Of a stretch of DNA of 64,000 bases, positions 1-35,148 are shown piece after piece. The notes beneath the pieces are model-generated. The model had not been told where the DNA came from and made no database searches. It was given only the letters and a program-made list of their open reading frames with translations. Every line of letters begins with the position of its first letter. Position 1 is the first letter of the stretch. A program made the translations under genes and the position numbers. This DNA is from Rhizopus arrhizus (lineage: Eukaryota; Mucoromycota; Mucoromycetes; Mucorales; Rhizopodaceae), in NCBI GenBank assembly GCA_024220505.1, contig JAKZZE010000027.1, positions 739,874 to 803,873 on the forward strand. The letters are read 5' to 3'.

Positions 1-1073
1 TCGAGTGCACTATAGATCGCCTCATTCAGAGTGTCATTGAGAGCGTCTATAGGCGGAGCAGCAGAAGGAGGACTTGACTTCAGAGCTTTGAGCTGATCAA
101 CCAATGGAGAGACCAAGGACTGGAATGTGGCCACGTACAGACTACAGACATCGGGTTCCTTCAACCGAGAGAGGTTCCATAGCCGACGGGCAGAAGAAGA
201 AGAAGAAGAGAGAACGGGCTGCGATGGATAACCATCAGGGACTGCATAGTCAAAGGACAAGGACAACAGTTTGTGGTCAGAGCCAAGAGAGAGATCACTG
301 TAGACTTGCATCCGAGGGGACCGAAGGACAGAGGTCATGTTGGTCAAGAAGTAGTCGATCATACTTTGCTTGACTTGACCACCACGAAAGGACAAGAAAG
401 TAGGAACCCCAGGAGCGAGAGTCGAGTTCAGAACAGAGAGACCATGTTCTTCACACCAGCGAAGCAGCACCGAACCTCGAGCATTGGCAACGGAATCACC
501 CGTTAGTGCACCAAGACGCGCGTTCAGATCACCACAGATGATCGTGTCGTCTGTCAAGGGCAACGAAACCAACACAGAAGAGACCTCGTCGTTGGACAAG
601 GAAGGGGGCAAATACAGGCAGATGAGACGCAAGGAGCGACCCAACCGCAGACCCAGAGCATACTTGGTATGAACCGGGAACTGTACCACAGCCATCGGAC
701 ACCGAGGAGACACCAGAGCAGAGACACCTTGAGAGCCACGATAGCTGTTGATCACAGGAGAGCCATACAGATTGAACTGGGTCCAAGAGGTACGGATCCT
801 GTGAGGCGGAAGCAACCAGGTTTCAGTGATGAAGACCAAGGAAAACGACTGGCAGTGACGAAGAAGATCCTCGGCTGTGGATTCTTGAAGCCCATTGGCA
901 TTCCACAAGCCGATAGTGAGCGGTATAGAAGAAGTTAATGAGGATGATGAAGAAGAGGGTGGACCATGGAAGCCATGAGAACCAGAGGGAACCAAAGGAG
1001 AGGAAGGAGCTGGGACCATACCAGTAGCAGAGACCGAGGATGCATTATAATGACAAGTATTACTACTCATCAT
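1..1073 (-). CDS. LINE A ORF2, N-terminal endonuclease part (incomplete)
   Basis: Start of the endonuclease/reverse-transcriptase polyprotein, running off the left edge without a stop that I could find. The start is the ATG at 1073, which shares its A with the ORF1 stop (TAATG). The AP-endonuclease (EEP) signature is visible: WNANGL, a TETWL block, GDLNARLG and SDHKLL, the metal-binding and catalytic stations of the family. Its job is to nick target DNA for target-primed reverse transcription. Compared with LINE B it carries three extra codons in a serine tract near 190-215, from an in-frame expansion of AGA repeats on the plus strand. The RT domain is outside the window, so integrity cannot be judged. 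Confidence 0.85.
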   Translation of the reverse strand, partial: MMSSNTCHYNASSVSATGMVPAPSSPLVPSGSHGFHGPPSSSSSSLTSSIPLTIGLWNANGLQESTAEDLLRHCQSFSLVFITETWLLPPHRIRTSWTQFNLYGSPVINSYRGSQGVSALVSPRCPMAVVQFPVHTKYALGLRLGRSLRLICLYLPPSLSNDEVSSVLVSLPLTDDTIICGDLNARLGALTGDSVANARGSVLLRWCEEHGLSVLNSTLAPGVPTFLSFRGGQVKQSMIDYFLTNMTSVLRSPRMQVYSDLSLGSDHKLLSLSFDYAVPDGYPSQPVLSSSSSSARRLWNLSRLKEPDVCSLYVATFQSLVSPLVDQLKALKSSPPSAAPPIDALNDTLNEAIYSAL

Positions 1074-2077
1074 TATAATGATCCAAAGCTGGAACGAGAG
1101 GCAGGACGGTGATGCTCATAGTCATCAAGAACCATGTCGTCGTCGGGTTGATCAGGATGACGAGGGAAGGAGGGACGATCTTGCTTGGCAGACAAGACAT
1201 CTGAGACTGCCTCGTCAGACACCATGGCATTAGCCAAAAAGAAGCGCGAGACAGCAACAGCAACAGGATAGCGCAAGCGCTCTAAGGTACGAAGGCAACG
1301 CTCATTAGAAATGTGCGCCATCTTTTCTTGACGTACCTCAAGAGACGCGGAAGAGAAAGCAGGGTCAGCAACGTTGTCGGGGTCCAAAGGATCGAACTGA
1401 TCAAGGATCTTGATCTTTGCTTTTTCAAGCAAAGAGACGAGAGCAGGCTTGTACTGAAGGTGTACAAGAAGGCCAACAACGGAGTGTGCGGGGAACGAAA
1501 CATCTAACACCCGCCAGGTGTCAACACCCAAACGACCAAGACGACGACGAGCTTCGGTGTATGTCATTTTACGGGATCGAGGTATGTAGACATAGTCAAA
1601 TCCTTGCTCACCAGTTACAGGCTGGAAGCCACGAGCAGCAGCGGCGCGACGACGGAGTTTGTTCTTTGTAGAACGAGAAACAACAGTAGCCCAAGACGAG
1701 GCAGCAGTACCCAAGGAGGGCGAAGAAACGGACGCGTTAGCAGCAGCAGGAGCAACAGGAGAAGAAACGGCGGCATTTGAACTTGGGGTGCTTGTAGGGA
1801 CCCCGGCAGTTTGTGCGGCCAGTTGGGCCCGCAAAGAAGCAATCTCATTGGCCTGAGACTGGTTAGTTTCGGCAAGGCGAGCATTCTCACCTCGCAAAGT
1901 TTCAAGCTCTAGCTTAAGCTGTTCTAGAGCAGAGAGACGAGCAGTGACCGCTTCAAGTGCGTGACTGAGATTCTGGACAGTGACTTCCAGGTCCGGCGAA
2001 TTGAGTCCGGCGGCGGCATTCAGGATCTTGGATCCTCTAGTATTTCTTGTTGAAGACATTTGGATGCAAACTTTCAA
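1073..2077 (-). CDS. LINE A ORF1 protein, 334 aa
   Basis: Complete ORF1 of the LINE, the presumed RNA-binding, nucleoprotein-forming protein that escorts LINE RNA. Residues ~28-95 form a leucine-rich heptad region (LEQLKLELETLRGENARL) predicted to be a coiled coil. An Ala/Ser/Thr/Pro-rich linker follows, then a basic stretch (KNKLRRRAAAARG) and a C-terminal domain of ~150 residues I do not recognise with certainty (RRM-like is possible). The product is the same length as ORF1 of LINE B, with differences mainly in the linker and C-terminus. The stop TAA overlaps the ORF2 start ATG by one base. A start nine codons downstream (MSSTRNTRG) is possible. Confidence 0.88.
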   Translation of the reverse strand: MKVCIQMSSTRNTRGSKILNAAAGLNSPDLEVTVQNLSHALEAVTARLSALEQLKLELETLRGENARLAETNQSQANEIASLRAQLAAQTAGVPTSTPSSNAAVSSPVAPAAANASVSSPSLGTAASSWATVVSRSTKNKLRRRAAAARGFQPVTGEQGFDYVYIPRSRKMTYTEARRRLGRLGVDTWRVLDVSFPAHSVVGLLVHLQYKPALVSLLEKAKIKILDQFDPLDPDNVADPAFSSASLEVRQEKMAHISNERCLRTLERLRYPVAVAVSRFFLANAMVSDEAVSDVLSAKQDRPSFPRHPDQPDDDMVLDDYEHHRPASRSSFGSL

Positions 2078-2255
2078 CGACGATTAAGCAACAAGTAATG
2101 AAGATATCAGAATAAGAGTTGAACCAAATAAAAGTATAGATCAAAAGGAGTCGATTGATGTAAAAATTGTTGATGGATGGATAGATTTGACAGAGATATC
2201 GGCTTGCAAAAAAAGAGTCAAGTTTACCTTTTTAACCAAAAGCGAAAGAAAAGTG
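2078..2255 (-). other. LINE A 5' UTR
   Basis: Untranslated leader of LINE A. It matches 9325-9502 (LINE B) almost base for base. In LINE C the matching stretch is split into 31821-31941 and 39277-39333 by the CACTA insertion. The outermost ~55 bases (from TCGGCTT to AAAAGTG) are found only at LINE 5' ends in this window. Any promoter for the LINE should lie here or just inside ORF1, but I recognise no specific promoter motif. Confidence 0.6.
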
Positions 2256-2260
2256 GCTTC

Positions 2261-2275
2261 GGGGAAATGGTGTAG
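2261..2275 (+). repeat. Target-site duplication: first 15 nt of tRNA-Ala
   Basis: GGGGAAATGGTGTAG equals nucleotides 1-15 of the intact tRNA-Ala gene at 9503-9517. It flanks the 3' end of LINE B, while the intact copy flanks its 5' end. It is therefore the left half of a 15-bp target-site duplication created when LINE B entered the tRNA gene. Confidence 0.9.
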
Positions 2276-2538
2276 ACGAAGATTTTTATTAATATATATT
2301 AGGAGTATATTGACAAGCGATAAATATCATGATAGTCATACTCAAGTACAAAAAGAAAAGACAAGAAACAAAAAACACTCGCAGAGCACACAAGAGCGAA
2401 AAAAAAGGAAAGAGAAAAGGCCAATGGAGACGCTAACTACTGAGCAACTCGTCAACACCATGGTCTCCTCCGCATCGTGCACTAAAATGGTTTGGCAGTG
2501 GGAGGTAGAAGCCAGAGGGTGGATCGGAGCGCTTGTCA
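2276..2538 (-). other. LINE B 3' UTR and tail
   Basis: About 263 bases between the ORF2 stop and the tRNA-derived target duplication, purine-rich on the plus strand. In sense orientation it ends in an A/T-rich stretch followed by TCTTCGT, not poly(A). The SINE at 39349-39894 ends in a similar tail (CTTTCGTCTTTCGT), suggesting that the LINE reverse transcriptase recognises this end. Confidence 0.6.
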
Positions 2539-5500
2539 TTAGGGAGTAGTAGCAGCAGAGGACTTGTCAATCCAGACTTGACCTGGAGCAGAAGACGAGT
2601 TGTACTCGATGTCAGGATGACAGATCTTGTCAAAGTGACAGAGGATCTGACAAAGAGCGGACCAGAAAGGCGGACACCGAGCAGAAGCAGAGACAGGAAG
2701 CAAGTTCAAGACATAGTCTATGTGGTGGCCCACATAACCAGTCGGCGGCACAGGTAGACAGCACCAGAGAGCAGAAGGAACCAAGGTACAGACCATGAGA
2801 TGAGAACGAGAAGTATCGCCAAGACCACAGGAACAGGGAGCAGGCTTGCCTGGGATCCAACCCATGCGCCATCTGATAAGTCGAGATCGGTCAGCACGGG
2901 AGGCAGGCAAGTAGAGGATGGGATCCACCCGGAGAACAGGACGACAAGCGCGGATCAGAACCTGAGGGGTGGACTGTAAGAAGCTATGGAACTGGTCTTG
3001 ACGATACCTTCGCAACCAAGAAGCAAGACGAGAAGACGAAAGAGGAGCATCCGAAGGGTAGTCGAGTATGATTTGCCGCTTACGGAGCTGTGCCAGCAAT
3101 GACGACGATATAGACGAGGACAGCAGAGACAAAAGACAATCATCAGGAAGGCCATTGAATCGAAGACAGAACTTCAGAACCAAGGTATCAGCCCTAAAGG
3201 TCATCGACGGCAAATTGGTAATGTGCCGAAGCACCACAGTTGAAGCAGTTCGGTGACCACCGACAAGCATTCGAAGACACCGGTCTTGAGCGCGGTTGAG
3301 CTCTTCACCGTCCTTTCTTGTAAGTCGAGCAATAGCAAGGCCATACTCGAGCTTAGGACGGATGAAGGCAGCAAAGAGACGAGAAGAGAGAAGCAGAGTA
3401 AAGCCTTGACGGTTAAGGCCCATAGAGTGAAGTTGAGCCATAGCCGCCAAGGTACTTGCAGAACGATGTTTTATCATGGCAGAGACAGAGATACCTTTAC
3501 CATCGAAAGGGACACCAAGATAGGTAAACTCTTCAGCAGTAGGAAGGTCTTGACCATATAGAGACATTTGAACATATCGACTTGATGCAGCAGTAGGTGC
3601 ATTGAGGACGGCACACTTTGGTGGACTCCACTTGTAACCAAGAGTCAAGGAGTGGATCTGCGCTAGGTCCAGCATATGCCGAACTTCGCTAGCAGACCCA
3701 ACCAGCGCCACATCATCCGCATACAACAGACTGTTGATGGGTGTGGGCGTAGGAGACGAGGAAGACAAAGCAGCAGCACCAACCAAAGGACCAAAGGGAA
3801 GACCATCGGAGACCAGAGCACCAGGACCAGGAGGACCAGAAGGAGACACCGATAACACCGAGGTGGTTGTTGCAGAAGCAGCAGAACGAAGCAGAGCTGG
3901 TAATGTGTTGACATAGATCGAGTACAGGTGAGGACTCAAGACAGAGCCCTGAAGGACACCTGTACTCGGCACAAACGGATCAGAGACATTGTTCTGCAAC
4001 AACACAGACACCGAGACATCATCAAACATGTTGGCCAACAAGGACACCAAGGACAGAGGAGCAGAAGAGGCGAGCATCGATTGCCATATGATACGACGAT
4101 CGACTGTATCATAGGCTGACTTGATGTCCAGGAAAGCAACCACAGGATAATGATTGTGTCGGCGTCGGTAAGAGTGCATCAGATCATGGAGACAGAGAGC
4201 TTGATCCAATGCACTACGCTGGTGACGGAAACCACCTTGAACTACATCGAGCGGAGGAGAGACATCTTCAACAGAGGGAAAGAGACACATCTCAAAGAGC
4301 TTGCGAACGATGGAGGTCAAGGAGATTGGACGATAGTTCCCTGGCGAGGTAGGATCACCCTTTTTGTGGATGGGGACCACCTGTGCTTGACGCCAGAGAG
4401 AAGGGGTATACGACCACTGGTAGCAGATACTGAAGAGCAAAGAGAGCAGTGGGGCCAGAACAGACTTGATGGGGAGGATCATCTCCGTACGCAAGTGGTC
4501 AGGACCAGGAGCTTTACGCAGAGGGAGACGTCGCATCAGTGAACCCACACTGTCAGCAGAGAACGAGGGCATACCAGGGTCTTGACTATCGAGGTCAAAA
4601 GGCACCATACCAGAGACAGAGGGCAGAGGGTCAGGACGCCTTGACGGAAGACCGTCACCAGAGTAGACCGAGGCAAGGTGTTGACGCATCGCGTTCGCAC
4701 CTGCAGCAGGGCCGTCAGGATGAGTAAACCCAACCTGTTGACGTCGTCGGTTCCGAATCACCTTCACCTTCGACATCGCACGAGCAAGTTCGCCACGGGC
4801 CAGAGAGTCACAGAAAGCACGCCAAGAGAGACGCTTGGCAGACTTGAGAGCAGAGCGGAACCGGGCTTGAGCAGCCTGATGTCGATCCCACCACAAGGCC
4901 TTGTCGATGCCAATGGCTCGACGCCACTTGCGGTAATGGTGTTCACGAACATCGGCGAGTTCTTGCAAGTGCGTATTCCAGAATGGCTTCCATTGGGAAG
5001 GTCGAGAAGAGCGAGAGCCAACCGACTTGTCGAGTGCACTATAGATCGCCTCATTCAGAGTGTCATTGAGAGCGTCTATAGGCGGAGCAGCAGAAGGAGG
5101 ACTTGACTTCAGAGCTTTGAGCTGATCAACCAATGGAGAGACCAAGGACTGGAATGTGGCCACGTACAGACTACAGACATCAGGTTCCTTCAACCGAGAG
5201 AGGTTCCATAGCCGACGGGCAGAAGAAGAGAGAACGGGCTGCGATGGATAACCATCAGGGACTGCATAGTCAAAGGATAAGGACAACAGTTTGTGGTCAG
5301 AGCCAAGAGAGAGATCACTGTAGACTTGCATCCGAGGGGACCGAAGAGCAGAGGTCGTGTTGGTCAAGAAGTAGTCGATCATACTTTGCTTGACTTGACC
5401 ACCACGAAAGGACAAGAAGGTAGGCACCCCAGGAGCGAGAGTCGAGTTCAGAACAGAGAGACCATGTTCTTCACACCAGCGAAGCAGCACCGAACCTCGA

Positions 5501-5792
5501 GCATTAGCAACGGAATCACCCGTTAGTGCACCAAGACGCGCGTTCAGATCACCACAGATGATCGTGTCGTCTGTCAAGGGCAACGAAACCAACACAGAAG
5601 AGACCTCGTCGTTGGACAAGGAAGGGGGCAAATACAGGCAGATGAGACGCAAGGAGCGACCCAACCGCAGACCCAGAGCATACTTGGTATGAACCGGGAA
5701 CTGTACCACAGCCATCGGACACCGAGGAGACACCAGAGCAGAGACACCTTGAGAGCCACGATAGCTGTTGATCACAGGAGAGCCATACAAGT

Positions 5793-5801
5793 TGAACTGG
5801 G
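5793..5801 (+). repeat. 9-bp target duplication of Merlin-1 (left)
   Basis: TGAACTGGG at 5793-5801 is repeated at 8014-8022 and occurs once at the same place in uninterrupted LINE ORF2 (LINE A near 776). An 8-9 bp duplication is characteristic of the Merlin superfamily. Confidence 0.9.
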
Positions 5802-6140
5802 GGATCTGTGAAAGATTTACCGTCCACATACTATATATACATATATAAACTCCGCGTGCGGAGTTTAATATGCTTAATATGGTTATTGGGGTCACAGAAC
5901 ACGATTCTGTTATTTTCAAGCGGAGTTTATTATACCAAAAATGGTCAACTGCGAGATTCTCGAAGTTCCGTTGTTTTTTTCCTCCATCCTATTACTCCAA
6001 GCAAGAGTGCGGGCAAGTACAAGGTCATTAAAAAAATCCGGGTCGAGATATGACTTCTGAAGTTCGAGAAAATCCGCGTCAAAAATCAGAAATTTGATGA
6101 CAGAAGGACTTGCAAAACGAAAATCGGCAAATCAGCATTC

Positions 6141-6206
6141 TTGGTCAAATAGCTATGTCGATAGCTTTCAAATGTGTAGGTCGTTGGTTCGATTCCCTGT
6201 AGATAC
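6141..6206 (+). pseudogene. tRNA-like relic with a good B box
   Basis: Within Merlin-1 upstream of the transposase, a tRNA-like stretch has an A-box-like TAGCTATGTCG and a canonical B box, GGTTCGATTCC. Acceptor pairing is poor and I could not fold a convincing cloverleaf. It is probably a decayed tRNA or SINE head and not a functional tRNA. Confidence 0.35.
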
Positions 6207-6459
6207 TCATATATTGTCATCTACTTTTTGCTTAACTTTTACTCTAAGTTACTTAGCATTTTTTTTTTCAAAATCTCAAGAGTTTCGGGAAAACTTTTGT
6301 CATCTCACTACGGTAAAACGAACTTCCGTTGCGGAGATGCTTCCTATCTATCGGATGATCTCGGAATGATAACAAATCTTGTAAAAAAATATAAAAAGAG
6401 GTACTTTTTCTTTTTTTTTTTTCTTTCTTTCATCTTTTTATCCATTTCATCAAAATCTA

Positions 6460-7786
6460 ATGTCTTCCAACGCTGCTAACAACATGCCAACTCTTGCTTA
6501 TATTGCCGAAAGAACTATGACGGCTGACTGTACTATGAAGTAAGTTTGTTTTTAAATGGGAGGGAACGTAACTAAAGGCAACTGGTATAAGGTATTTAAA
6601 GGAAAATGGTGCTTTTTTTTCTACACGCAAGTGTAAAGAAGGCTCTGAAATGCGCTTGAACCAGTCCAGCCGAGATGGATTCTTTTGGCGATGTGGCTCA
6701 AGGAACTGTGCGTGCGGTCGTAGCCGTATTTCTTACTTGGACGGCTCCTTTTTCCAAGGTCGCAAGTCCATTATTCATCAAACACTCTTAGTAGTGTACC
6801 TTTTTCTGTTACAAGTTCCAAACGGAACAATATCTACTATGACTGGTCTTAGTCTACCGACTGTCCGCAACATTATTACGGACATATACCAAGTAATGGA
6901 GGTAGATCTTCGAATTGAAGATGTTCAAGTCGGTACGTGATGCTTTGTTTACATCAGAGTATGTGATTAACAAGTCATACTTAGGTGGAGTTAACAGTGA
7001 TGGGCAGCCAATTGTCGTTGAAGTAGACGAAAGCAAGTTTGGGAAGCGAAAGTACAATAAGGGGAAGAGGGTCGATGGTGTTTGGGTTGTTGGAGGTGTA
7101 GAGCGTACGCCCGAGCGTAAGGTGTTCTTGTTGACGGTGCCTAACCGCAATCAAAATACCTTGAAGTTGATAATCGATACATTCGTAAAGGATGGTAATG
7201 ATTAGAATATGTATATGCTAGATGATCAGTGCACCTAATCATTGATGACAGGCTCGCATGTTATGGTAGATTGCTGGAAAGGCTATAAAGGGATTGACAG
7301 TGATCCAAGCCGAAACTTAATAGTGGAAACGGTCAATCACTCAAAGACGTTCCGTGATCCGAAGACAGGTGCTTGTACTAATACTATAGAAGGTACGTAC
7401 TTGTGTAGATCATAGAATTCTTAGACGATGCTAACAACCTGCTACTAGGCACCTGGAATGGTATCAAACGAGGAGTGACTAGTCGTCATCGTACAGCATC
7501 GATGATGCCATGGAAGTTAGTAGAGTTTATATGGCGTAGAAAACATGCCGGTGATCACTGGAAGGCAATACTTGCTTGCTTTTCGCAAGTGTCGTTCACT
7601 AGAGCAGGCATTGCCAACCAAGGTCCCCTGGTATCTTTGCTGACTACCGTCTTAGAGGATAGCACTAGTGATCAAGGGGAAACGGAACCAATTATTTTCA
7701 TCTCAGATGAGGATTCCGATAACGAATACAATGAAGATTATACTCCTACTTCTCGTACCACCATGAAAAAGCTCCGCACTGCTTAA
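6460..7786 (+). CDS. Merlin-1 transposase (ISXO2-like), spliced
   Basis: Transposase of Merlin-1. The best-supported exons are 6632-6932, 6985-7194, 7252-7392 and 7449-7786 (GT-AG introns of 52-57 nt, all phase 1), giving 329 residues. Seen: Zn-binding cysteines (CGSRNCACG), a helix-turn-helix-like region (STMTGLSLPTVRNII), first catalytic Asp in VEVDESKFGKRK, second Asp in VDCWKGYKGI, and the C-terminal block NTIEGTWNGIKRG, typical of IS1595 (DD-N/E). An upstream exon from the ATG at 6460 to 6539 is likely, but its phase does not join cleanly to 6632. Either my donor or acceptor is wrong or the gene carries a small lesion. The tail is acidic. Confidence 0.75.
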
Positions 7787-8319
7787 AATAAACAAATAAA
7801 ACTTTCATAGATAACCATACAAATCAGGGCTATATAGCGTCTATTTTCTAGCTTCATTAATGTCCGACTATTGCTTTTTTTGGATATAAATGTTACACCA
7901 ACTGAGAGTAAATTGTCCGGGCTTTCGAATGATGTATAACTTATGTCTATATGCTTGATTTTAGCTCCGCTACAGGCTTGCAAAAATGTGGACGGTAAAT
8001 CTTTCATTTAGCCTGAACTGGGTCCAAGAGGTACGGATCCTGTGGGGCGGAAGCAACCAGGTTTCGGTGATGAAGACCAAGGAAAACGACTGGCAGTGAC
8101 GAAGAAGATCTTCGGCTGTGGATTCTTGAAGCCCATTGGCATTCCACAAGCCGATTGTAAGCGGTATAGAAGAAGATGACGATGACAAATGAGAGGATGG
8201 ACCATGGGAGCCATGAAAACCAAGAGAATCCAAAGGAGAGGAAGGAGTTGACTGATCTGGGACCATACCAGATGAAGAGACCAAGGATGCACTATAATGA
8301 CAAGTATTACTACTCATCA

Positions 8320-9324
8320 TTATAATGATCCAAAGCTAGAGCGAGAGGCAGGACGATGATGCTCATAGTCATCAAGAGCCATGTCTTCAGCCATGTCATC
8401 GTAATGGCGGGCAGTCTTGGGTCGGTCTTCCTTGACAGACAGAACTTCAGATACTGTCTCATCAGAGACAAGGGCTTGCGCCAACAAGTAACGAGAGACA
8501 GAGACAGCAACAGGATAGCGCAAGCGCTCTAAAGCCTTGCGAGAACGATCATCATTAATCAGCGAGATAGCATGGCTACGCTCTTCAGCAGAAACAGAGT
8601 CAAACTTGGGATCAGCCAGGTTAGCAGGATCAAGAGGGTCGAACGTATCCAAGGTGGGGATCTTGGCCTTTTCCAACAAGGACAGAAGAGCAGGCTTGTA
8701 CTGAAGATGTACCAGAAGACCGACAACAGAGTGGGCAGGATAGCAAACATCCAAGATGCGCCAGCTATCCACACCAAGACGAGAGAGACGACGACGAGCT
8801 TCGGTGTAGGTCATCCTACGAGAGCGAGGTATATAGACATACTCGAAGCCTTGTTCACCAGAAACGGGCTGGAAACCACGAGCAGCGGCAGCACGACGAC
8901 GAAGCTTGTTCTTGGTGGAACGAGAAACAACAGTAGCCCAAGAAGAGGCAGCAGTACCCAAGGTGGGCGAAGAAACGGTATCTTTAGCACCGTTAGGAGC
9001 GGCAGCAGAAGAAAGAGCGGCATTTGAATTGGGGGTGCTTGTAGGGGCCCCGGCAGTTTGTGCGGCCAGTTGGGCCCGCAAAGAAGCAATCTCATTGGCT
9101 TGAGATTGGTTAGTTTCGGCAAGGCGAGCATTCTCACCTCGTAAATTTTCAAGCTCTAGCTTAAGCTGTTCTAGAGCAGAGAGACGAGCAGTGACCGCTT
9201 CAAGTGCGTGACTGAGATTCTGGACAGTGACTTCCAGGTCCGGCGAATTGAGTCCGGCGGCGGCATTCAGGATCTTGGATCCTCTAGTATTTCTTGTTGA
9301 AGACATTTGGATGCAAACTTTCAA
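8320..9324 (-). CDS. LINE B ORF1 protein, 334 aa
   Basis: Intact ORF1, same length as in LINE A. The coiled-coil heptads at ~28-95 are essentially identical, while the Ala/Ser/Pro linker and the C-terminal third differ at many residues (for example ESVSVSRYLLAQALVSDE-type changes). A and B are therefore not recent duplicates of each other although their 5' UTRs match closely. Presumed role: RNA-binding chaperone of LINE RNA. The stop TAA overlaps the ORF2 ATG at 8320. Confidence 0.88.
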   Translation of the reverse strand: MKVCIQMSSTRNTRGSKILNAAAGLNSPDLEVTVQNLSHALEAVTARLSALEQLKLELENLRGENARLAETNQSQANEIASLRAQLAAQTAGAPTSTPNSNAALSSAAAPNGAKDTVSSPTLGTAASSWATVVSRSTKNKLRRRAAAARGFQPVSGEQGFEYVYIPRSRRMTYTEARRRLSRLGVDSWRILDVCYPAHSVVGLLVHLQYKPALLSLLEKAKIPTLDTFDPLDPANLADPKFDSVSAEERSHAISLINDDRSRKALERLRYPVAVSVSRYLLAQALVSDETVSEVLSVKEDRPKTARHYDDMAEDMALDDYEHHRPASRSSFGSL

Positions 9325-9502
9325 CGACGATTAAGCAACAAGTAATGAAGATATCAGAATAAGAGTTGGACCAAATAAAAGTATAGATCAAAAGGAGTCG
9401 ATTGATGTAAAAATTGTTGATGGATGGATAGATTTGACAGAGATATCGGCTTGCAAAAAAAGAGTCAAGTTTACCTTTTTAACCAAAAGCGAAAGAAAAG
9501 TG
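9325..9502 (-). other. LINE B 5' UTR
   Basis: LINE leader ending exactly at tRNA-Ala nucleotide 1 (9503). It matches the leader of LINE A. Because it lies between the two copies of the 15-bp target duplication it is part of the element and not tRNA flank. Confidence 0.7.
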
Positions 9503-9575
9503 GGGGAAATGGTGTAGTGGCTATCACATCCGCTTTGCATGCGGAAGGCCCCGGGTTCAAACCCCGGTTTCTCCA
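9503..9575 (+). tRNA. tRNA-Ala (anticodon TGC)
   Basis: A 73-nt cloverleaf can be written by hand. The acceptor GGGGAAA pairs with TTTCTCC, including the G3-U70 wobble that identifies tRNA-Ala. The 5-bp anticodon stem TCCGC/GCGGA closes loop TTTGCAT (anticodon TGC). The T arm is CCGGG-TTCAAAC-CCCGG and the discriminator is A. A ten-T run (9625-9634) downstream can terminate RNA polymerase III. There is no intron and no encoded CCA. Its first 15 nt are the LINE B target duplication, so the insertion left this gene complete. LINE B begins directly upstream on the other strand. Confidence 0.93.
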
Positions 9576-21019: not shown

Positions 21020-22758
21020 TTATGAGTTACTGGCTCTATTGCCTAAATTTCTACGGGTAGTACGGGCAGCACGGTTAGCACCTCTAGGTCTACCAACAGG
21101 ACGGCTTCCAGTTCGAGGCCTTCCACCAAGACGATTACTATGTGTAGGTAAGGCTTCGTTTTGACCATTGCTGGATACCAAAGGACTGCCCTGCTCTGAT
21201 TGAAGTAAAAAGCTGGATGTTTCTGCCGTGTCATTTAGCTCCTCCCCGCCATCGTTTGCTTGTATAGCTTCTTCTTCTAACAATTCCCTAGCATCGCGGG
21301 CACGACGACGTTCTATCCATGCTTCAAAACGACGAGCATCTCTAGCTGCAATTCGTGCTGACACAGAAGGGGAATTGCCATCAACACCGCGGGTAAACCA
21401 GCTTTCAGTTTCAGCAGACTGTTGAGCTGTATTCGAATCCATTGCCACCTCACGAATCATACGTTCGAAGCACTGTTTTACACTACCTCCATTTTCGCTT
21501 CGCCAAAGATACTCCAAGATGCGTTTGTAACAGTTCTTTTTGGTTCGGTTACGAGGCTTGATAAATGCTTTCAAAGGAGCCCACATACTTTCGATCATGT
21601 TGGTATGAATCTTACCAAATATTGGCAAGCCAGAATACTCGCCTTGGTTACCTTGAACTTGATCTACTGTGGCAAAGTCTAAGGAATGATTAACAACCTG
21701 ATGTCTTGCAAAAAAGAAGTTGCCATCATTGTAAGCTCTTGTGTTGTCAAGTATCTCGCCAGTATTTTCGTCATGCTCTTCCCTAGGGTGCAGACCGGAA
21801 TATGCTCTCCATCCATCAGATCTAATGGTTGACCCACGCTGGCAGTTATCATAAATGATGGGCAAGAGTGTTGCCGCTGTTCGATTAGGGACGGTGCAAA
21901 AGAATTTGCGTCCTGCTTCGTACCTAGGTCTTAGCTCTTGTTCGCCAGTTCGATGATCAGTGTAGGTGTAAAATCGATCTGCTTCGTTGATGGGGACCAA
22001 GCACTCAACCATACCAAAGACCCAGATACCTTCTACACGATGACCACGATGGTTTTTGCGCTTGCCAAACTTAGATTCATCTATTTGTATGTGATGACAC
22101 CTTATGTTAGAACCTAGCTTATGCTCCTCTTGTCGATTATGGGCATTGTAATCACTGAGCATCATTAAACGAAGATCATTTGCCAATGAAGTCACAGCAG
22201 GACGACTCATACCATGGGAGTTGCAAATGTTGCTGATATTTGAACCCTTCAAATAGTCATACATCACCGAAAGAGTGTAGTTGGTCAAGCATTTACGATT
22301 GTAAAACACCGAATTATAAGTACAAACGCGTGATTTTCTTCCAGCATGACCAATAGTAGCACCATTTTCATCAATCTCAAGACCACCAGCACAATAGTAC
22401 GTAAGTCTTCCGCTGTCGACACGATTTCTTAGGGTGCAAACTTTTCGACAGCCATCAATGCCACATACATTAGTTCTATGAAAAGCGTTGTTTACGGATA
22501 AAAGATGACTGCAAACAAAGGTAAAGAGTTAGTAAGAAAAAAAAATCCCACTATCGCAATGTAACATTTTTTATTATAATTAACTTACTCCCATGCTCTT
22601 TCAGGACTAACAATTATTTGCGCTTCAAGGACACGGTCACCAGCAGGAGGAACATAAGACCTGTAACGTGAGACTACTTGACCAGATACTCGACCGCCCC
22701 TACGAGGAGTGACATCGTTGTTTGAAGGGACAGAAGCAGATGAGTTGAAACGAGGCAT
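21020..22758 (-). CDS. Merlin-2 transposase, copy 1 (552 aa, two exons)
   Basis: Exon 1 22589-22758 (start MPRFNSSASVPSN), an 80-nt GT-AG intron, and exon 2 21020-22508; the joined 1659 nt are fully open. N-terminus with a basic AT-hook-like patch (TPRRGGRVSG), Cys-rich motif (CGIDGCRKVC ... YYCAGG), helix-turn-helix (ISNICNSHGMSRPAV), then the ISXO2/IS1595 DDE core: IQIDESKFGKRK (first Asp), RSDGWRAYSGL (second), and HTNMIESMWAPLKAF (third, N/E). The C-terminus is basic with GGRPRTGSRPVGRPRG, another AT-hook-like tail. At 552 aa it is longer than the ~300-aa Merlin-1 core. It differs from copy 2 by few residues (for example GSNISN versus DSSITN). Confidence 0.88.
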
Positions 22759-25090: not shown

Positions 25091-27868
25091 AATCCACAAC
25101 CACAATTTTGGGGTTTAACCATAGCGATAGAAATAATCAGAGATCCAAGCTTAACTTTAGTCATAGGCCAAATTTTAGCTATAAGCATAGCCATAGGCAC
25201 AAAAATAGTGAGCTATGTGTAAAAATCTCTTTGTATGATTTGCATACCAAATGGGGTGTGTCTAGTGCTGGTTATCACTCCGCTTAACTTTAGCCATAAG
25301 CCAAATTTTAACTATAAGCCTATCCATAAGCGTAAACATAGTGAGCTATGTGTAAAAATCGCCCTATCTCGTTTATATGCCCAATGGGGTGCGGCTAGTG
25401 TTTCTACCACAATTCTGAAATTAAGCGGGCAACCACAGGATTTTGGGGTTTAACCATAGCGATAGAAATAATCAGAGATCCAAGCTTAACTTTAGTCATA
25501 GGCCAAATTTTAGCTATAAGCATAGCCATAGGCACAAAAATAGTGAGCTATGTGTAAAAATCTCTTTGTATGATTTGCATACCAAATGGGGTGTGTCTAG
25601 TGCTGGTTATCACTCCGCTTAACTTTAGCCATAAGCCAAATTTTAACTATAAGCCTATCCATAAGCGTAAACATAGTGAGCTATGTGTAAAAATCGCCCT
25701 ATCTCGTTTATATGCCCAATGGGGTGCGGCTAGTGTTTCTACCACAATTCTGAAATTAAGCGGGCAACCACAGGATTTTGGGGTTTAACCATAGCGATAG
25801 AAATAATCAGAGATCCAAGCTTAACTTTAGTCATAGGCCAAATTTTAGCTATAAGCATAGCCATAGGCACAAAAATAGTGAGCTATGTGTAAAAATAGCT
25901 TTGTGTGATTTATAGAGCAAATGGGGTGCACTTAGTGTTGGTTATCACTCCGCTTAACTTTAGTCATAAGCCAAATTTTAGCTATAAGCCTAGCGATAGG
26001 CACAAAAATAGTGGGCTATGTGTAAAAATCTCTTTGTATGATTTGCATACCAAATGGGGTGTGTCTAGTGCTGGTTATCACTCCGCTTAACTTTAGCCAT
26101 AAGCCAAATTTTAACTATAAGCCTATCCATAAGCGTAAACATAGTGAGCTATGTGTAAAAATCGCCCTATCTCGTTTATATGCCCAATGGGGTGCGGCTA
26201 GTGTTTCTACCACAATTCTGAAATTAAGCGGGCAACCACAGGATTTTGGGGTTTAACCATAGCGATAGAAATAATCAGAGATCCAAGCTTAACTTTAGTC
26301 ATAGGCCAAATTTTAGCTATAAGCATAGCCATAGGCACAAAAATAGTGAGCTATGTGTAAAAATCTCTTTGTATGATTTGCATACCAAATGGGGTGTGTC
26401 TAGTGCTGGTTATCACTCCGCTTAACTTTAGCCATAAGCCAAATTTTAACTATAAGCCTATCCATAAGCGTAAACATAGTGAGCTATGTGTAAAAATCGC
26501 CCTATCTCGTTTATATGCCCAATGGGGTGCGGCTAGTGTTTCTACCACAATTCTGAAATTAAGCGGGCAACCACAGGATTTTGGGGTTTAACCATAGCGA
26601 TAGAAATAATCAGAGATCCAAGCTTAACTTTAGTCATAGGCCAAATTTTAGCTATAAGCATAGCCATAGGCACAAAAATAGTGAGCTATGTGTAAAAATA
26701 GCTTTGTGTGATTTATAGAGCAAATGGGGTGCACTTAGTGTTGGTTATCACTCCGCTTAACTTTAGTCATAAGCCAAATTTTAGCTATAAGCCTAGCGAT
26801 AGGCACAAAAATAGTGGGCTATGTGTAAAAATCTCTTTGTATGATTTGCATACCAAATGGGGTGTGTCTAGTGCTGGTTATCACTCCGCTTAACTTTAGC
26901 CATAAGCCAAATTTTAACTATAAGCCTATCCATAAGCGTAAACATAGTGAGCTATGTGTAAAAATCGCCCTATCTCGTTTATATGCCCAATGGGGTGCGG
27001 CTAGTGTTTCTACCACAATTCTGAAATTAAGCGGGCAACCACAGGATTTTGGGGTTTAACCATAGCGATAGAAATAATCAGAGATCCAAGCTTAACTTTA
27101 GTCATAGGCCAAATTTTAGCTATAAGCATAGCCATAGGCACAAAAATAGTGAGCTATGTGTAAAAATCTCTTTGTATGATTTGCATACCAAATGGGGTGT
27201 GTCTAGTGCTGGTTATCACTCCGCTTAACTTTAGCCATAAGCCAAATTTTAACTATAAGCCTATCCATAAGCGTAAACATAGTGAGCTATGTGTAAAAAT
27301 CGCCCTATCTCGTTTATATGCCCAATGGGGTGCGGCTAGTGTTTCTACCACAATTCTGAAATTAAGCGGGCAACCACAGGATTTTGGGGTTTAACCATAG
27401 CGATAGAAATAATCAGAGATCCAAGCTTAACTTTAGTCATAGGCCAAATTTTAGCTATAAGCATAGCCATAGGCACAAAAATAGTGAGCTATGTGTAAAA
27501 ATAGCTTTGTGTGATTTATAGAGCAAATGGGGTGCACTTAGTGTTGGTTATCACTCCGCTTAACTTTAGTCATAAGCCAAATTTTAGCTATAAGCCTAGC
27601 GATAGGCACAAAAATAGTGGGCTATGTGTAAAAATCTCTTTGTATGATTTGCATACCAAATGGGGTGTGTCTAGTGCTGGTTATCACTCCGCTTAACTTT
27701 AGCCATAAGCCAAATTTTAACTATAAGCCTATCCATAAGCGTAAACATAGTGAGCTATGTGTAAAAATCGCCCTATCTCGTTTATATGCCCAATGGGGTG
27801 CGGCTAGTGTTTCTACCACAATTCTGAAATTAAGCGGGCAACCACAGGATTTTGGGGTTTAACCATAA
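25091..27868 (+). repeat. Subtelomeric satellite with 803-bp higher-order repeat
   Basis: Tandem array built from a ~133-bp unit (CTTAACTTTAGYCATARGCC ... GGTTATCACTCCG) and a ~202-bp variant that carries an extra block with GGGCAACCACAGGATTTTGG. They join as 335 + 335 + 133 = 803 bp, repeated three times from 25235 (25235, 26038, 26841, 27644) with near identity. Single diverged units of the same family lie near the telomere in opposite orientation (58840-58940, 59385-59480, 63660-63780). Short ORFs inside are repeat artefacts. The right edge at 27868 joins abruptly to the middle of LINE C ORF2. Confidence 0.92.
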
Positions 27869-30147
27869 CCACCTTGAACTACATCGAGCGGAGGAGAGAC
27901 ATCTTCAACAAAGGGAAAGAGACATCTCTCAAAGAGCTTGCGGACGATGGAGGTCAAGGAGATTGGACGATAGTTCCCTGGCGAGGTAGGATCACCCTTT
28001 TTGTGGATGGGGACCACCTGTGCTTGACGCCAGAGAGAAGGGGTATACGACCACTGGTAGCAGATACTGAAGAGCAAAGAGAGCAGTGGGGCCAGAACAG
28101 ACTTGATGGGGAGGAGCATCTCCGTACGCAAGTGGTCAGGACCAGGAGCCTTACGCAGAGGGAGACGTCGCATCAGTGAACCCACACTGTCAGCAGAGAA
28201 CGAGGGCATACCAGGGTCTTGACTATCGAGGTCAAAAGGCACCATACCAGAGACAGAGGGCAGAGGGTCAGGACGCCTTGACGGAAGACCGTCACCAGAG
28301 TAGACCGAGGCAAGGTGTTGACGCATCGCGTTCGCACCTGCAGCAGGGCCGTCAGGATGAGTAAACCCAACCTGTTGACGTCGTCGGTTCCGAATCACCT
28401 TCACCTTCGACATCGCACGAGCAAGTTCGCCACGGGCCAGAGAGTCACAGAAAGCACGCCAAGAGAGACGCTTAGCAGACTTGAGAGCAGAGCGGAACCG
28501 GGCTTGAGCAGCCTGATGTCGATCCCACCACAATGCCTTGTCGATGCCAATAGCACGACGCCACTTGCGGTAGTGGTGTTCACGAACATCGGCGAGTTCT
28601 TGCAAGTGCGCATTCCAGAATGGCTTCCATTGGGAAGGTCGAGAAGAGCGAGAGCCAACCGACTTGTCGAGTGCACTATAGATCGCCTCGTTCAGAGTGT
28701 CATTGAGAGCGTCTATAGGCGGAGCAGCAGAAGGAGGACTTGACTTCAGAGCTTTGAGCTGATCAACCAATGGAGAGACCAAGGACTGGAATGTGGCCAC
28801 GTACAGACTACAGACATCGGGTTTGTGTTATCTCGTAAGAATAAAAAAGACTATAAAATTCAACGAGACTTAAAAAAGTTATATTTTTATTTAATATTAT
28901 TGTATCTGGTATTTATATCCTTTTCATGAAGATTCAATTAAATCCTTTTCAAGATACTTTAATTAATTATAGCTGTAGATCTAGCATGAATAAATTTTAG
29001 TATGAAGACCTGTTCCTGGTTATGCAAGTGGACTGTTTATAATTATTTAAGTAGATCTATTTTTCATTTATGTCTCATTGCATCAGGAGCTATATTAAAA
29101 CAACTTGTATTGAGTTAAAGGAGTGGAATTAGTTATGACCGAATAATAGAGAAAAGACTGTAATAAATCTTTGTAAAGCATTCACTACTCTGATTTCTTA
29201 TAAATTGAATATGAATCATGTTTAAAGTATGTTGGGATACGACAGGGTTCCTTCAACCGAGAGAGGTTCCATAGCCGACGGGCAGAAGAAGAGAGAACGG
29301 GCTGCGATGGATAACCATCAGGGACTGCATAGTCAAAGGACAAGGACAACAGTTTGTGGTCAGAGCCAAGAGAGAGATCACTATAGACTTGCATCCGAGG
29401 GGACCGAAGGACAGAGGTCATGTTGGTCAAGAAGTAGTCGATCATACTTTGCTTGACTTGACCACCACGAAAGGACAAGAAGGTAGGCACCCCAGGAGCG
29501 AGGGTCGAGTTCAGAACAGAGAGACCATGTTCTTCACACCAGCGAAGCAGCACCGAACCTCGAGTATTGGCAACGGAATCACCCGTTAGTGCACCAAGAC
29601 GCGCGTTCAGATCACCACAGATGATCGTGTCGTCTGTCAAGGGCAACGAAACCAACACAGAAGAGACCTCGTCGTTGGACAAGGAAGGGGGCAAATACAG
29701 GCAGATGAGACGCAAGGAGCGACCCAACCGCAGACCCAGAGCATACTTGGTATGAACCGGGAACTGTACCACAGCCATCGGACACCGAGGAGACACCAGA
29801 GCAGAGACACCTTGAGAGCCACGATAGCTGTTGATCACAGGAGAGCCATACAGATTGAACTGGGTCCAAGAGGTACGGATCCTGTGAGGCGGAAGCAACC
29901 AGGTTTCAGTGATAAACACCAGAGAGAACGACTGGCAGTGACGAAGAAGATCTTCGGCTGTGGATTCTTGAAGCCCATTGGCATTCCACAAGCCGATTGT
30001 GAGCGGAATAGAAGAAGTTGATGACGATGACGAAGGAGAGGAAGAACCATGGGAGTCATGAGAAACCAAAGGAGAGGAAGGAGCTGGGACCATACCAGTA
30101 GCAGAGACCGAGGATACATTATAATGACAAGTATTACTACTCATCAT
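27869..30147 (-). pseudogene. LINE C ORF2, broken by solo LTR and truncated
   Basis: Starts at the ATG at 30147 (TAATG overlap with ORF1). The N-terminal endonuclease part (WNANGL, TETWL, GDLNARLG, SDHKLL) is open to the LTR at 29244. The frame resumes left of the LTR (28823-27869) with the linker region and the first RT blocks (KAPGPDHLRTEM, NYRPISLTSIVRKLFE), then stops at the satellite junction inside the RT domain, before the YADD motif. Close to LINE B in sequence. Confidence 0.88.
28824..29244 (+). mobile_element. Solo LTR (421 bp) in LINE C ORF2
   Basis: TGTGTTATCTCG...GGGATACGACA with the 5-bp duplication GGGTT (28819-28823 and 29245-29249), inserted into sequence that is continuous in LINEs A and B. 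No coding content. It differs from the 4-bp-duplication LTRs elsewhere in this window. Confidence 0.88.
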
Positions 30148-31820
30148 TATAATGATCCAAAGCTAGAGCGAGAGGCAGGACGGTGATGTTCATAGTCATC
30201 AAGAACCATGTCGTCGTCGGGTTGATCGCGGTGACGAGGGAACGAGGGACGATCTTGCTTGGAGGCCAAGACGTCAGAAACAGCCTCGTCTGACACCATG
30301 GCGTTGGCCAAAAAGAAGCGCGAGACAGCAACAGCAACAGGATAGCGCAAGCGCTCAAGGGTACGAAGACAGCGTTCATTAGAGATATAGGCCATCTTTT
30401 CTTGACGTACCTCAAGAGACGCAGAAGCGAAAGCAGGGTCAGCAACATTGTCAGGGTCCAAAGGATCGAACTGATCAAGAACCTTAATCTTTGCTTTCTC
30501 CAGCAAAGAGACGAGAGCAGGCTTGTACTGAAGATGTACAAGTAGACCAACAACGGAGTGGGCGGGGAATGAAACGTCTAACACCCGCCAGGTATCAACA
30601 CCCAAGCGACCAAGACGACGACGAGCTTCGGTATATGTCATTTTACGGGATCGAGGTATGTAGACATAGTCAAATCCTTGCTGTTTAGGATAGGGGAGTT
30701 TTAGGTAAATATAATATAGCAATCAAAGATAAAGAAATACTGTTAGAACTTGGTATCTCTTTATTAAGTTAAGATAACTATTATTTTTATCAAAATAAAT
30801 TCTACATGTAAAAAGTGAGAGTATTTATAGACATGATACGGATAAAGAATTAGGACAGATTTATAATCAACTTGACAGAATAGATGATTACGATTTCTAA
30901 TTATTAGTTTAGCCTGTTCCTAGCTTGTATTGTCAATTATGCTATTGGGATGGTTTCAGATAACTCTGGATAAAGACTATTTAAGGAGACGGTACGGATG
31001 AATATAATGACCTTTAGTTCCGTGATTGGATATCATTGCTAACAATAATATCTCAGTCAGGATAAATGTTTTCATGACTAATGATGATCCGGTAAGTAAT
31101 CGTCATTCCTTATTCAACATGCTCATACTATCACTAAACTATATTACAACCATGTCATCTTATTTGACTATGTGAAGTAAATATGAATAAAGCTTAATAT
31201 AAAAATCTAATCAAAGTATTTTATTGATCTGTGTTGGGAATAATGTTATAAATGATTCCAAGTTATGTCAACATATTATTCAGGATCATATCTGATTCCT
31301 TTTACTAAAATAAAGTGACTATAATCTTATGTATCCTTAACACTTGCTCACCAGTTACAGGCTGGAAGCCACGAGCAGCAGCAGCACGACGACGGAGTTT
31401 GTTCTTTGTAGAACGAGAAACAACAGTAGCCCAAGACGAGGCAGCAGTACCCAAAGAGGGCGAAGGAACGGACTCTTTAGCACTAGTAGAAGCGGCAGCA
31501 GAAGAAAGAGCGGCATTTGAACTTGGGGTGCTGGTAGGGACCCCGGAAGATTGTGCGGCCAGTTGGGCCCGCAAGGAAGCAATCTCATTGGCTTGAGACT
31601 GGTTAGCTTCGGCAAGGCGAGCGTTCTCACCTCGTAGGGTTTCAAGCTCCAGCTTGAGCTGCTCTAAGGCAGAGAGACGAGCAGTGACAGCTTCTAGTGC
31701 GTGACTGAGACTTTGAACTGTGACTTCGTGGTCGGACGAATTGGGTCCGGCGGCGGCATTCAGGATTTTAGATCCTCTAGTATTTCTTGTTGTTGACATT
31801 TGGATGCAAACTTTCAGCAA
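30147..31820 (-). pseudogene. LINE C ORF1, split by solo LTR
   Basis: ORF1 of the LINE family. The N-terminal half with the coiled coil lies at 31820-31343 and the C-terminal half at 30681-30147, separated by an LTR inserted at GEQ^GFDY. Sequence is close to LINE A ORF1 in the C-terminal half. An extra codon-like start (ML) precedes the usual MKVCIQM. Both halves are open, so the LTR insertion is the only evident lesion. Confidence 0.87.
30682..31342 (+). mobile_element. Solo LTR (661 bp) in LINE C ORF1
   Basis: TGTTTAGGAT...ATCCTTAACA, nearly perfect 10-bp inverted ends, and the 5-bp duplication CTTGC (30677-30681 and 31343-31347). No internal genes. Confidence 0.9.
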
Positions 31821-32199
31821 TGATTAAACAACAAGTAGCAAAGATATCAGAATAAGAGTTGAACCAAATAAAAGTATAGATCAAAAGGAGTCGATTGATG
31901 TAAAAATTGTTGATGGATGGATAGATTTGACAGAGATATCGCACTGCAAATAATTGGAGATATTAAACGTAGTTTTTTAGCATAAATGAGCGCAACAACG
32001 CGAAGTTTAACGCAACTCCACGGAATTTTATTGCTCTTTTAAACGATTTTCGAGGCAGAGCAGTAATCGTTAAATAACTTTTACGCAAGCAAGAGGAGGT
32101 CGTTTAGTGTTCTTTTACCAAACCATTTTTTACGTTTCAATTAATACTAGTCAACGTTTGGGCAACGAATGATACGTTTTAAAACATTACTTTATATGT

Positions 32200-32430
32200 C
32201 TTTTTGTTCTTTTATCGACCGCTCATATTGCCTTATATACTTCTTCATCGAACACTCCTATTGCCTTATATACTTCTTTATTGACCACTCCTATTGCCTT
32301 ATATACTTCTTTATTGACCACTCATATTGCCTTATATACTTCTTTATGAACCACTCATATTGCTTTATATACTTCTTTATGAACCACTTATATTGCTTTA
32401 TATACTTCTTTATTGACCATTCATATTGCA
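32200..32430 (+). repeat. 33-bp minisatellite in the CACTA left arm
   Basis: About seven copies of a 33-bp unit with core ATTGCCTTATATACTTCTTT, drifting in the later copies. The 97-aa ORF across it is a repeat artefact. Confidence 0.85.
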
Positions 32431-32640
32431 ATAAATATTGCTTTATATATACAAAAAAATAGGGATTTTGTTTATAAAAAATAGCTTTTTTTTTTTATTT
32501 AAATAAAATAATAATAACAATACATAGTATTTCTTTGCTTGTAGCGTTTTAAAAGTGTACTTGACTTACCTAATGTCACCAGAATAGCAGCATCTAATCT
32601 AAAAATACATCAACTAGTCTCGTGGAACTCAAAAAGTTCT

Positions 32641-32669
32641 CAAAAAAAAAAAAAAAAAAAAAAAAAAAA
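32641..32669 (+). repeat. Poly(A) run
   Basis: About 29 consecutive A residues in the subterminal region of the CACTA element. Length is likely to vary and be error-prone. Confidence 0.9.
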
Positions 32670-32799
32670 GCCAAGCTCAAGGATTCAGAGACACAAGGAT
32701 TCAAGAATTCAAGGACTTGGGCACTCAAAGCAAAAGAAAAGACATCAGTACTTAAGAACCAAAGCGAAAATTAGGAAAGAAACAGAAAGAGGCCAAAGC

Positions 32800-33190
32800 A
32801 GAGCAGCATTCATCTATAACAATTATTAGCTATCGTGTATATGTAGTAAAAGTAATAGTACCTTTCTTTAGATAGACCATGGGAAGAAAACTAGCTAAGC
32901 GTATACTCACAAGTAAAAAAAGCAGCAGACATCTATAATAATTATTAGCTATTGAGTATATATAATAAAAGTGATAGTACCTTTCTTTAGATGGGCTAAG
33001 AGAAAAACCTTGCTAAGCTTTACCAACAAGTAAAAAAAAAAAAAAAAAAAGGAAGCAGTACTCCTCTATAATAATTATTAGTTATCAAGTATATAGTAAA
33101 AGTAATAGAACCTTGCTTTAGGTGGACCATGAGAAAAAAAAAGAAAAAGAAAAAAAGACAGCAGCCAAGCTTATACTAACAAGCAAAAGA
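32800..33190 (+). repeat. ~125-bp tandem repeat, three copies, CACTA left arm
   Basis: Three diverged units beginning near 32811, 32930 and 33062, each with CTATAAYAATTATTAG, a TATC/TTGAGTATAT stretch and AGTACCTTTCTTTAGATRG. Subterminal repeats of this kind bind the element's own proteins in plant CACTA elements; here that is inference. Confidence 0.7.
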
Positions 33191-34944: not shown

Positions 34945-34974
34945 GCGTTTACTTTCTCTTTTCTCTCTCTCCCT

Positions 34975-34978
<4 letters not shown>

Positions 34979-35006
<28 letters not shown>
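34979..35006 (+). repeat. Poly(T) run between convergent CACTA genes
   Basis: About 28 T residues just downstream of the Q-rich gene, followed by AATAAAAATTTC and ATAATAATAATA microsatellite. Probably part of the 3' UTR and polyadenylation zone for both convergent genes. The minus-strand ORF reading it as poly-K is spurious. Confidence 0.7.
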
Positions 35007-35010
<4 letters not shown>

Positions 35011-35148
35011 CCTTTTTGTTGTCTCTGCAAATTGAATAAAAATTTCAAAAAAAAAAATAACAATAATAGTCTATTGAATGATTCTTTAGTAAAATAAATA
35101 ATAATAATAATAATAATAAAAGAATGTTTGAATAATTTAGCATAGTTG

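Follow-up and report, generated by a model that had tools for sequence, protein, structure and literature searches.

The 64,000-nucleotide stretch of Rhizopus arrhizus DNA analysed here (the window) contains long and short interspersed nuclear elements (LINEs and SINEs) lodged within tRNA genes, each bordered by a short repeat. The window contains exactly two copies of the 15-mer GGGGAAATGGTGTAG, at 2261-2275 and 9503-9517, and exactly two of GGCTTCTTGGTTTAG, at 39334-39348 and 39895-39909, all on the plus strand. The second copy of each repeat opens an intact tRNA gene called by ARAGORN, tRNA-Ala(TGC) at 9503-9575 and tRNA-Pro(AGG) at 39895-39966. A preliminary description of the window had reported both border repeats and had placed the SINE in tRNA-Pro at the same offset as the LINE in tRNA-Ala, and both statements hold (repeat at 39334 and 39895, tRNA-Pro at 39895-39966).

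The LINE at tRNA-Ala, LINE B (2275-9502, minus strand), is antisense to the tRNA gene: its 3' end abuts the upstream copy (2261-2275) and its 5' end abuts the intact gene. Read on the plus strand, ACGAAGATTTTTATTAATATATA (3' tail) follows the first copy and GCGAAAGAAAAGTG (5' end) precedes the second. The left target duplication is tRNA-Ala nucleotides (nt) 1-14 (2261-2274, plus strand), the tail running G-ACGAAG from 2275, and the right one is the start of the gene itself (9503-9516). Open reading frame 1 (ORF1) lies at 8320-9330, and ORF2 mostly at 2539-5801, its N-terminal part lying past a DNA transposon at about 5802-8013. A terminal box, AAGTTTACCTTTTTAACCAAAAGCGAAAGAAAAGT (9467-9501, plus strand), is kept between diverged LINE 5' leaders and forms the 5' flank of the tRNA gene. 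Beyond the left duplication lies LINE A, the distal copy of the tRNA-Ala array (1-2254, minus strand; ORF1 1073-2083), whose 3' part is left of the window with its 3' end at contig position C20:737120. Between its 5' end and the left copy, at 2255-2260 on the plus strand, stands GGCTTC, which matches nt 1-6 of tRNA-Pro(AGG) and not tRNA-Ala, and is likely a tag from the source tRNA gene of LINE A.

At tRNA-Pro, the left duplication of nt 1-14 (39334-39347, plus strand) is followed by the SINE (39348-39894, minus strand) in the same register as the LINE. The tail of this SINE begins in a LINE-like way, with GACGAAAG, and its head resembles a tRNA, being classed as tRNA-Leu-like by ARAGORN in a sister copy.

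Element ends across the assembly

As the preliminary description had proposed, copies and their flanks were collected from the whole assembly (50,257,186 bases in 41 contigs, labelled C1 and so on). Pattern searches allowing up to 3 mismatches, which families with other end sequences would escape, matched 84 LINE 5' ends, 55 LINE 3' ends and 37 SINE 3' ends; control searches with the reversed patterns gave 0 matches for each of the three. Flanks were read for 68 of the 84 LINE 5' ends, 45 of the 55 LINE 3' ends and 21 of the 37 SINE 3' ends, and were compared with nt 1-14 of 11 isoacceptors, for each of which ARAGORN calls one or more intact genes next to an element. Nucleotide 1 was set by eye from the acceptor stem, ARAGORN placing it one base upstream in at least one copy for Gly(TCC), Asp, His, Gln and Val(AAC). 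ARAGORN calls at C4:207052, C8:211415, C39:952437 and C40:168985 were excluded, three having implausible introns and one being a SINE head.

With a tRNA start required within 32 nt and 1 mismatch permitted, 64 of the 68 LINE 5' ends meet tRNA nt 1-14. Sixteen of these enter a complete tRNA gene (14 ARAGORN calls, plus a tRNA-Val and a tRNA-Cys that match called genes exactly), and 48 enter a 14-nt copy and then the tail of the next element. A 14-nt tRNA start likewise precedes 41 of the 45 LINE 3' ends and 20 of the 21 SINE 3' ends, so the association noticed in the window extends across the genome. By chance, 51 of 20000 random 32-nt window slots match any of the 11 starts with at most 1 mismatch, real sites included. 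Once merged across array neighbours, the junctions number 93 on 19 contigs and involve all 11 isoacceptors: Pro (40), Asp (12), Gly(TCC) (11), Ala (8), Thr (6) and Cys (5), and more rarely His (3), Val(AAC) (3), Gly(GCC) (2), Val(TAC) (2) and Gln (1, on the gene side only).

Full length is the commonest state of the LINEs. The distance between end patterns is 4959-4978 bases in 27 of the 30 LINEs with both ends read, and, taking all 55 LINE 3' ends, a 5' partner stands at 4.9-5.0 kb for 31, at 4894 bases for 1 and at 5-12 kb for 11.

Among elements with both ends read, all 30 LINEs and 13 of 14 SINEs have the same isoacceptor on either side, against 17.2 of 44 expected from isoacceptor frequencies alone, although copies in one array share a gene and these agreements are not independent. 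The 30 two-sided LINEs thus all carry the target-site duplication typical of LINEs with an apurinic/apyrimidinic (AP) endonuclease, and the elements keep one fixed register in a multicopy gene, as site-specific LINEs do.

The length of the duplication, given as 15 bp in the preliminary description, has to be revised even though the repeat itself is real. The duplicate with one further base reads ...TAG, ...CAG or ...AAG, and tRNA-Gly(TCC) separates the target from the element: all 5 genes of this kind in the genome read TTTAATGG, with A15 (up to 2 mismatches permitted, 0 used), whereas the duplicates continue with GACGAA, that is with G and not A, in 9 of 9 read. This argues that the element supplies the fifteenth base, G. 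The first cut is best read as falling after A14, between A14 and R15, and the duplication as 14 nt long. With the LINE antisense to the tRNA, reverse transcription would be primed by the tRNA-sense strand. By-eye comparison of the 11 targets gives T8 R9 G10 Y11 N N A14 R15 as their common sequence, which corresponds to the start of the A box.

Proteins, families and choice of isoacceptor

Pfam searches identified in ORF2 an AP-type endonuclease (Exo_endo_phos_2, residues 114-234, E 1.3e-11; 5.9e-12 in a sister copy), as the preliminary description had predicted, followed by a reverse transcriptase (RVT_1, residues 540-827, E 1.6e-24). A reverse transcriptase frame with an AP-type endonuclease ahead of it is the layout of an AP-endonuclease non-LTR retrotransposon (LTR, long terminal repeat). 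Against solved structures, the reverse transcriptase matches R2 proteins and human L1 ORF2p, PDB matches that do not settle membership of the R1 clade, and the endonuclease has a weak match to TRAS1 (E 0.019). No Pfam domain was found above the cut-off in ORF1, which is 95% identical to an R. arrhizus protein. ORF2 is 87% identical to R. delemar RO3G_05927 and has relatives in Mucor, Phycomyces and R. delemar (49% identity in Mucor velutinosus); a search of viral contigs and genome contigs found no relatives, as expected for a fungal element. At 95% identity or more, ORF2 is stop-free in 37 of 41 rows, taken from the best 40 of 1228 candidates, a choice that favours good copies, and the LINE family looks little decayed. 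Comparison of ORF1 between LINE A (1073-2083) and LINE B (8320-9330) shows an identical N-terminus and 52-80% identity in the last third, making these mosaic elements.

Tails fall into groups: family 1 LINEs with SINE type 1 (GACGA, GGCGA), SINE type 2 (GGTTA), family 3 LINEs (GATAA) and family 4 LINEs (GTCGA). The C-terminus of ORF2 is 65% identical to that of family 1 in family 4 and 37% in family 3. Among the 48 junctions that continue into a tail, family 3 is at tRNA-Thr in 5 of 5, family 4 at tRNA-Cys in 3 of 3 and SINE type 2 at tRNA-Pro in 4 of 4, while all 36 junctions of family 1 and SINE type 1 are at Pro, Ala, Gly, Asp, His or Val and none is at Thr or Cys. Family 1 tails adjoin A14 directly in 41 of 41 cases and at eight isoacceptors, counted over all LINE 3' ends read. 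As far as sequence comparison can tell, then, one register is common to three LINE families and two SINE types, which suggests a stable trait, and the set of isoacceptors differs by family. Because distinct LINEs share the register but differ in isoacceptors, these data favour a protein of the element that itself reads the A-box sequence, and guidance by a factor could act too.

One LINE at tRNA-Asp (C8:1119684-1124650) combines a family 1 tail and ORF2 with a type-b leader and ORF1, and 5' and 3' modules seem exchangeable between LINE families.

Proposed insertion pathway and alternative explanations

The position, orientation and 14-nt duplication, the range of 11 isoacceptors, the site common to LINEs and SINEs and the nested arrays are all evident at the level of DNA sequence. 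They make it very probable that the LINE and its SINE partners insert antisense at A14^R15 inside host tRNA genes, duplicate nt 1-14 and leave a complete gene at the 5' end of the element, the AP-type endonuclease of the LINE being the predicted first cutter. In the pathway that we propose, ORF2 would nick the tRNA-sense strand just after A14, the exposed 3' end would serve as primer for reverse transcription from the element tail, and the opposite strand would be cut at nt 1. The transcript would begin a few nucleotides inside the tRNA gene adjoining the source copy; with a like gene as target, the end of the cDNA could anneal to the first target nucleotides, so that the 5' side is sealed scarlessly, whereas with another isoacceptor as target a foreign prefix would remain as a scar. 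The rebuilt gene, with the element end as its new 5' flank, would probably work and be a target again, and repeated targeting would build a head-to-tail stack of copies upstream of a single tRNA gene.

The 5' junctions bear on the transcript start assumed here. The end box AAAAGT joins tRNA nt 1 directly in 34 of the 64, and five carry a longer tRNA-like insert, four of them from an isoacceptor other than the target. Prefixes with the tRNA-Pro start are GGCTT (then GC) before tRNA-Gly, GGCTTC before tRNA-Ala (the one at 2255-2260) and GGCTTC before an incomplete tRNA-Asp; GCGTTCTT before tRNA-Pro is the tRNA-Gly(TCC) start, and GGGGAAAATG before tRNA-Ala is a near copy of the tRNA-Ala start. 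Other 5' junctions show shorter changes (A runs, one or two added bases, lost bases). Since such prefixes stand at 5' junctions, four of them foreign, LINE transcripts likely start about 5-9 nt inside the tRNA gene beside the source copy.

A complete tRNA gene next to the element is what the junctions present, so the rebuilding of the gene, claimed in the preliminary description, is borne out at this level. Occupied genes are identical over their full length in 6 of 6 Pro, 2 of 2 Ala, 3 of 3 Asp, 2 of 2 Cys and 2 of 2 Val(AAC) genes read. Genes were counted by their 30-nt starts with up to 2 mismatches, same-kind genes with other starts remaining uncounted. By this count, elements occupy 3 of 3 tRNA-Ala(TGC) genes (C34:30307 by coordinates alone), 6 of 7 tRNA-Pro(AGG) genes (the seventh, C4:214941, not being assigned either way), 3 of 5 tRNA-Gly(TCC) genes (C34:1160750 by SINE coordinates alone) and 5 of 12 tRNA-Asp genes, with the element at nt 1 (two by coordinates alone), or 17 of 27 over the four kinds. 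If insertion inactivated the gene, tRNA-Ala(TGC) of this type would be absent from the genome and tRNA-Pro(AGG) reduced to a single gene at most, which makes it likely that the rebuilt genes are functional; this would allow the elements to accumulate with little harm to the host.

Several observations weigh against this reading. Other isoacceptors or wobble may cover the codons of the occupied genes, whose essentiality is itself deduced, and by coordinates 7 of 12 tRNA-Asp and 2 of 5 tRNA-Gly(TCC) genes have no element at nt 1. Twelve of the 55 LINE 3' ends lack a partner 5' end within 12 kb and represent truncated, broken or diverged copies. Four of the 68 LINE 5' ends read lack a full tRNA start: at C8:1103014 an LTR-retrotransposon with an integrase (rve, E 3.5e-14) stands directly behind the end box, C23:2431316 carries GGCTTC, a tRNA-Pro prefix, together with an incomplete tRNA-Asp start, and C8:1220966 and C14:1028873, each with 1 mismatch in the end box, are without explanation. 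Likewise, 4 of the 45 LINE 3' ends lack a tRNA start: the tails of C4:194320 and C34:1196204 show one foreign element end, GTCCGCTACTGTA (the far side of the break in C4:194320 was found at C4:192608), C23:2431230 is the partner of C23:2431316, and C38:1048428 is without explanation. One of the 21 SINE 3' ends (C39:952910) has no tRNA start on its left and abuts tRNA-Asp on its right. The single discordant SINE (C34:18632) has tRNA-Asp on the left and tRNA-Ala on the right, which suggests recombination between arrays.

The LTR-retrotransposon (C8:1103040 onward) begins right after GCGAAAG of the LINE 5' end, the expected start of RNA polymerase III (Pol III) on the rebuilt tRNA gene.

Targeting could instead depend mainly on the Pol III machinery, with TFIIIB or TFIIIC as the docking point of a LINE protein, a mode proposed for the Dictyostelium element TRE5, and with an endonuclease of little specificity. 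We think this unlikely as the main determinant. All targets are Pol III genes struck at the A box, which TFIIIC binds, and one LTR-retrotransposon adjoins a LINE end, at the place expected for the Pol III start of the rebuilt gene. For TRE5, PMC5911963 reports that ORF1 interacts with TFIIIB, but the insertion window that it gives is 40-54 bp upstream of the tRNA gene, in contrast to the single-base register inside the gene seen here. The division of families by isoacceptor (family 3 at Thr in 5 of 5, family 4 at Cys in 3 of 3, family 1 with SINE type 1 at either in 0 of 36) suggests that sequence is read, the numbers for families 3 and 4 being small; docking and reading by the endonuclease can also act together.

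A second explanation, that the arrays arose mostly by unequal recombination of one inserted copy and reflect few real insertions, appears improbable. The copies do stand head to tail at a spacing of about 5 kb, most elements of an array share one isoacceptor, and one SINE, C34:18632, is discordant; moreover, the fall in ORF1 identity between LINE A and LINE B from 100% to 52% along the length indicates that recombination or template switching occurs. However, the junctions are spread over 19 contigs and 11 isoacceptors, LINE and SINE alternate within arrays, tail length varies from copy to copy, and the putative first insertions at C18:282839, C34:1184402 and C38:1512061 are preceded by DNA that is neither LINE end nor SINE head. 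That the tRNA pieces are a fixed part carried by the element, as the tRNA-like SINE heads might suggest by showing that tRNA sequence travels with the elements, can be practically dismissed, since the piece varies with the neighbouring tRNA gene (43 of 44 elements agree on both sides, over 7 isoacceptors) and the same tail follows different pieces.

We propose, tentatively, that the tRNA gene is the LINE's own promoter, with an antisense start at about nt 5-9, that restoration rebuilds this promoter, that the tRNA-derived 5' tag of the transcript guides the next closure, and that the conserved 35-bp LINE end is the Pol III start region of the tRNA gene. Between LINE 5' leaders of types a and b, 87 of 147 columns agree (59% identity) before the final 31 columns, of which 30 are shared. 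The search pattern itself accounts for part of the conservation of the 26-bp 5' end, yet no match used 2 or 3 of the 3 permitted mismatches. As this end forms the flank directly 5' of the tRNA gene, the end box may contribute to Pol III initiation or to transcription of the LINE. If the promoter proposal is true, element and gene drive each other, each landing renews the host gene and the landing site, and the whole set of an isoacceptor (Ala-TGC, nearly all of Pro-AGG) can be taken over.

Relation to known elements and other features of the window

The R1 elements of Drosophila target the 28S gene and the elements here target tRNA genes. A 28S gene interrupted by R1 is not known to be restored. 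The two are alike in their duplication, 14 bp having been proposed for many R1 insertions (PMC2718515). The same text describes melanogaster-type R1 with 28S tags at the 5' end, including in non-28S insertions, and proposes that transcripts with target-gene sequence anneal to the target; R1 in the melanogaster group is thus a precedent for the annealing of prefixes suggested above.

The preliminary description had suggested that an AP-type fungal LINE which cuts within the A box and leaves the gene working would occupy a distinct niche, and this needs softening, since tRNA-gene-specific LINEs related to NeSL are already published. PMC4640811 describes them as strictly specific for tRNA genes, like the elements here, and lists NeSL-1_TV at tRNA-Pro, LIN15_SM at tRNA-Arg and LIN25_SM at tRNA-Glu, each with one tRNA kind, whereas family 1 tails follow eight isoacceptors. 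In that paper, target-specific elements outside the Tx1 and R1 clades have restriction-like endonucleases; here an AP-type domain precedes the reverse transcriptase in place of the NeSL arrangement, no search for a restriction-like motif having been made. The open-licence literature searched yielded no AP-type LINE within tRNA genes of fungi and no AP-type, multi-isoacceptor, gene-restoring, array-forming LINE with SINE partners, and the available parts of PMC6875170 and PMC10886601 contain nothing on LINEs inside tRNA genes.

Dictyostelium TRE5 and TRE3 are also non-LTR elements tied to tRNA genes, but according to PMC5911963 they insert outside the gene, 40-54 bp upstream or 40-150 bp downstream, whereas the elements here lie inside it, after nt 14, and not at a set distance from it. 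Dada, which had been cited as a LINE in the preliminary description, is a DNA transposon (PMC3706591). Like the elements here, it enters tRNA genes, and in Perkinsus its insertions fall in the A box (TAGCTC), but it has a DDE transposase and 6-7 bp duplications (same source), in contrast to the reverse transcriptase, AP endonuclease and 14-nt duplication found here. Within Mucorales, Grem-LINE1 of Mucor is a two-ORF LINE with an AP endonuclease; it is described as pericentric, and 'tRNA' is absent from the main text of PMC7377519. In Rhizopus oryzae, where LINEs make up 3.78% of the assembly, Ty3-like elements often co-localise with tRNA genes but are LTR elements (PMC2699053).

The kind of element, a target-specific LINE in tRNA genes, is therefore known, and the AP-type gene-restoring variant looks new. 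It would be a natural solution to safe insertion, in which an AP-endonuclease LINE enters an essential gene class through a universal motif and leaves the gene restored, and a retrotransposon aimed at such a motif without gene loss is of interest for tool building. Questions that become testable are the reading of the A box by an endonuclease, the use of one enzyme for many isoacceptors, the tRNA gene doubling as LINE promoter and the near-total occupancy of one isoacceptor's genes.

Elsewhere in the window, LINE C (27859-39332, minus strand; 5' end at 39332, left coordinate provisional) is a broken copy at the tRNA-Pro locus. Its 5' leader is interrupted by an element at 31942-39276 with CACTGCAAATA ends, a tnp2 transposase ORF (PF02992) and TCG on either side; several SINE copies show a CACTGCAAATAAT start, similar to the CACTGCAAATA ends, near one place. 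Further 14-mer matches were dropped: those at 17508, 24676, 42512 and 49677 belong to one repeat with a Cys-like start and no element tail, containing GTGGGATTAGCTCA, 1 mismatch from the tRNA-Cys start, and the one at 62991 has 1 mismatch and no tail. The DNA transposon in LINE B (about 2.2 kb) has 21-bp inverted repeats (start 5809, end 8006) and 9-bp TGAACTGGG flanks. By eye, the reading frame within 5802-8013 resembles the 502-residue ORFs at 21020-22528 and 44656-46164, the former of which matches an IS1595-like (ISXO2) transposase.

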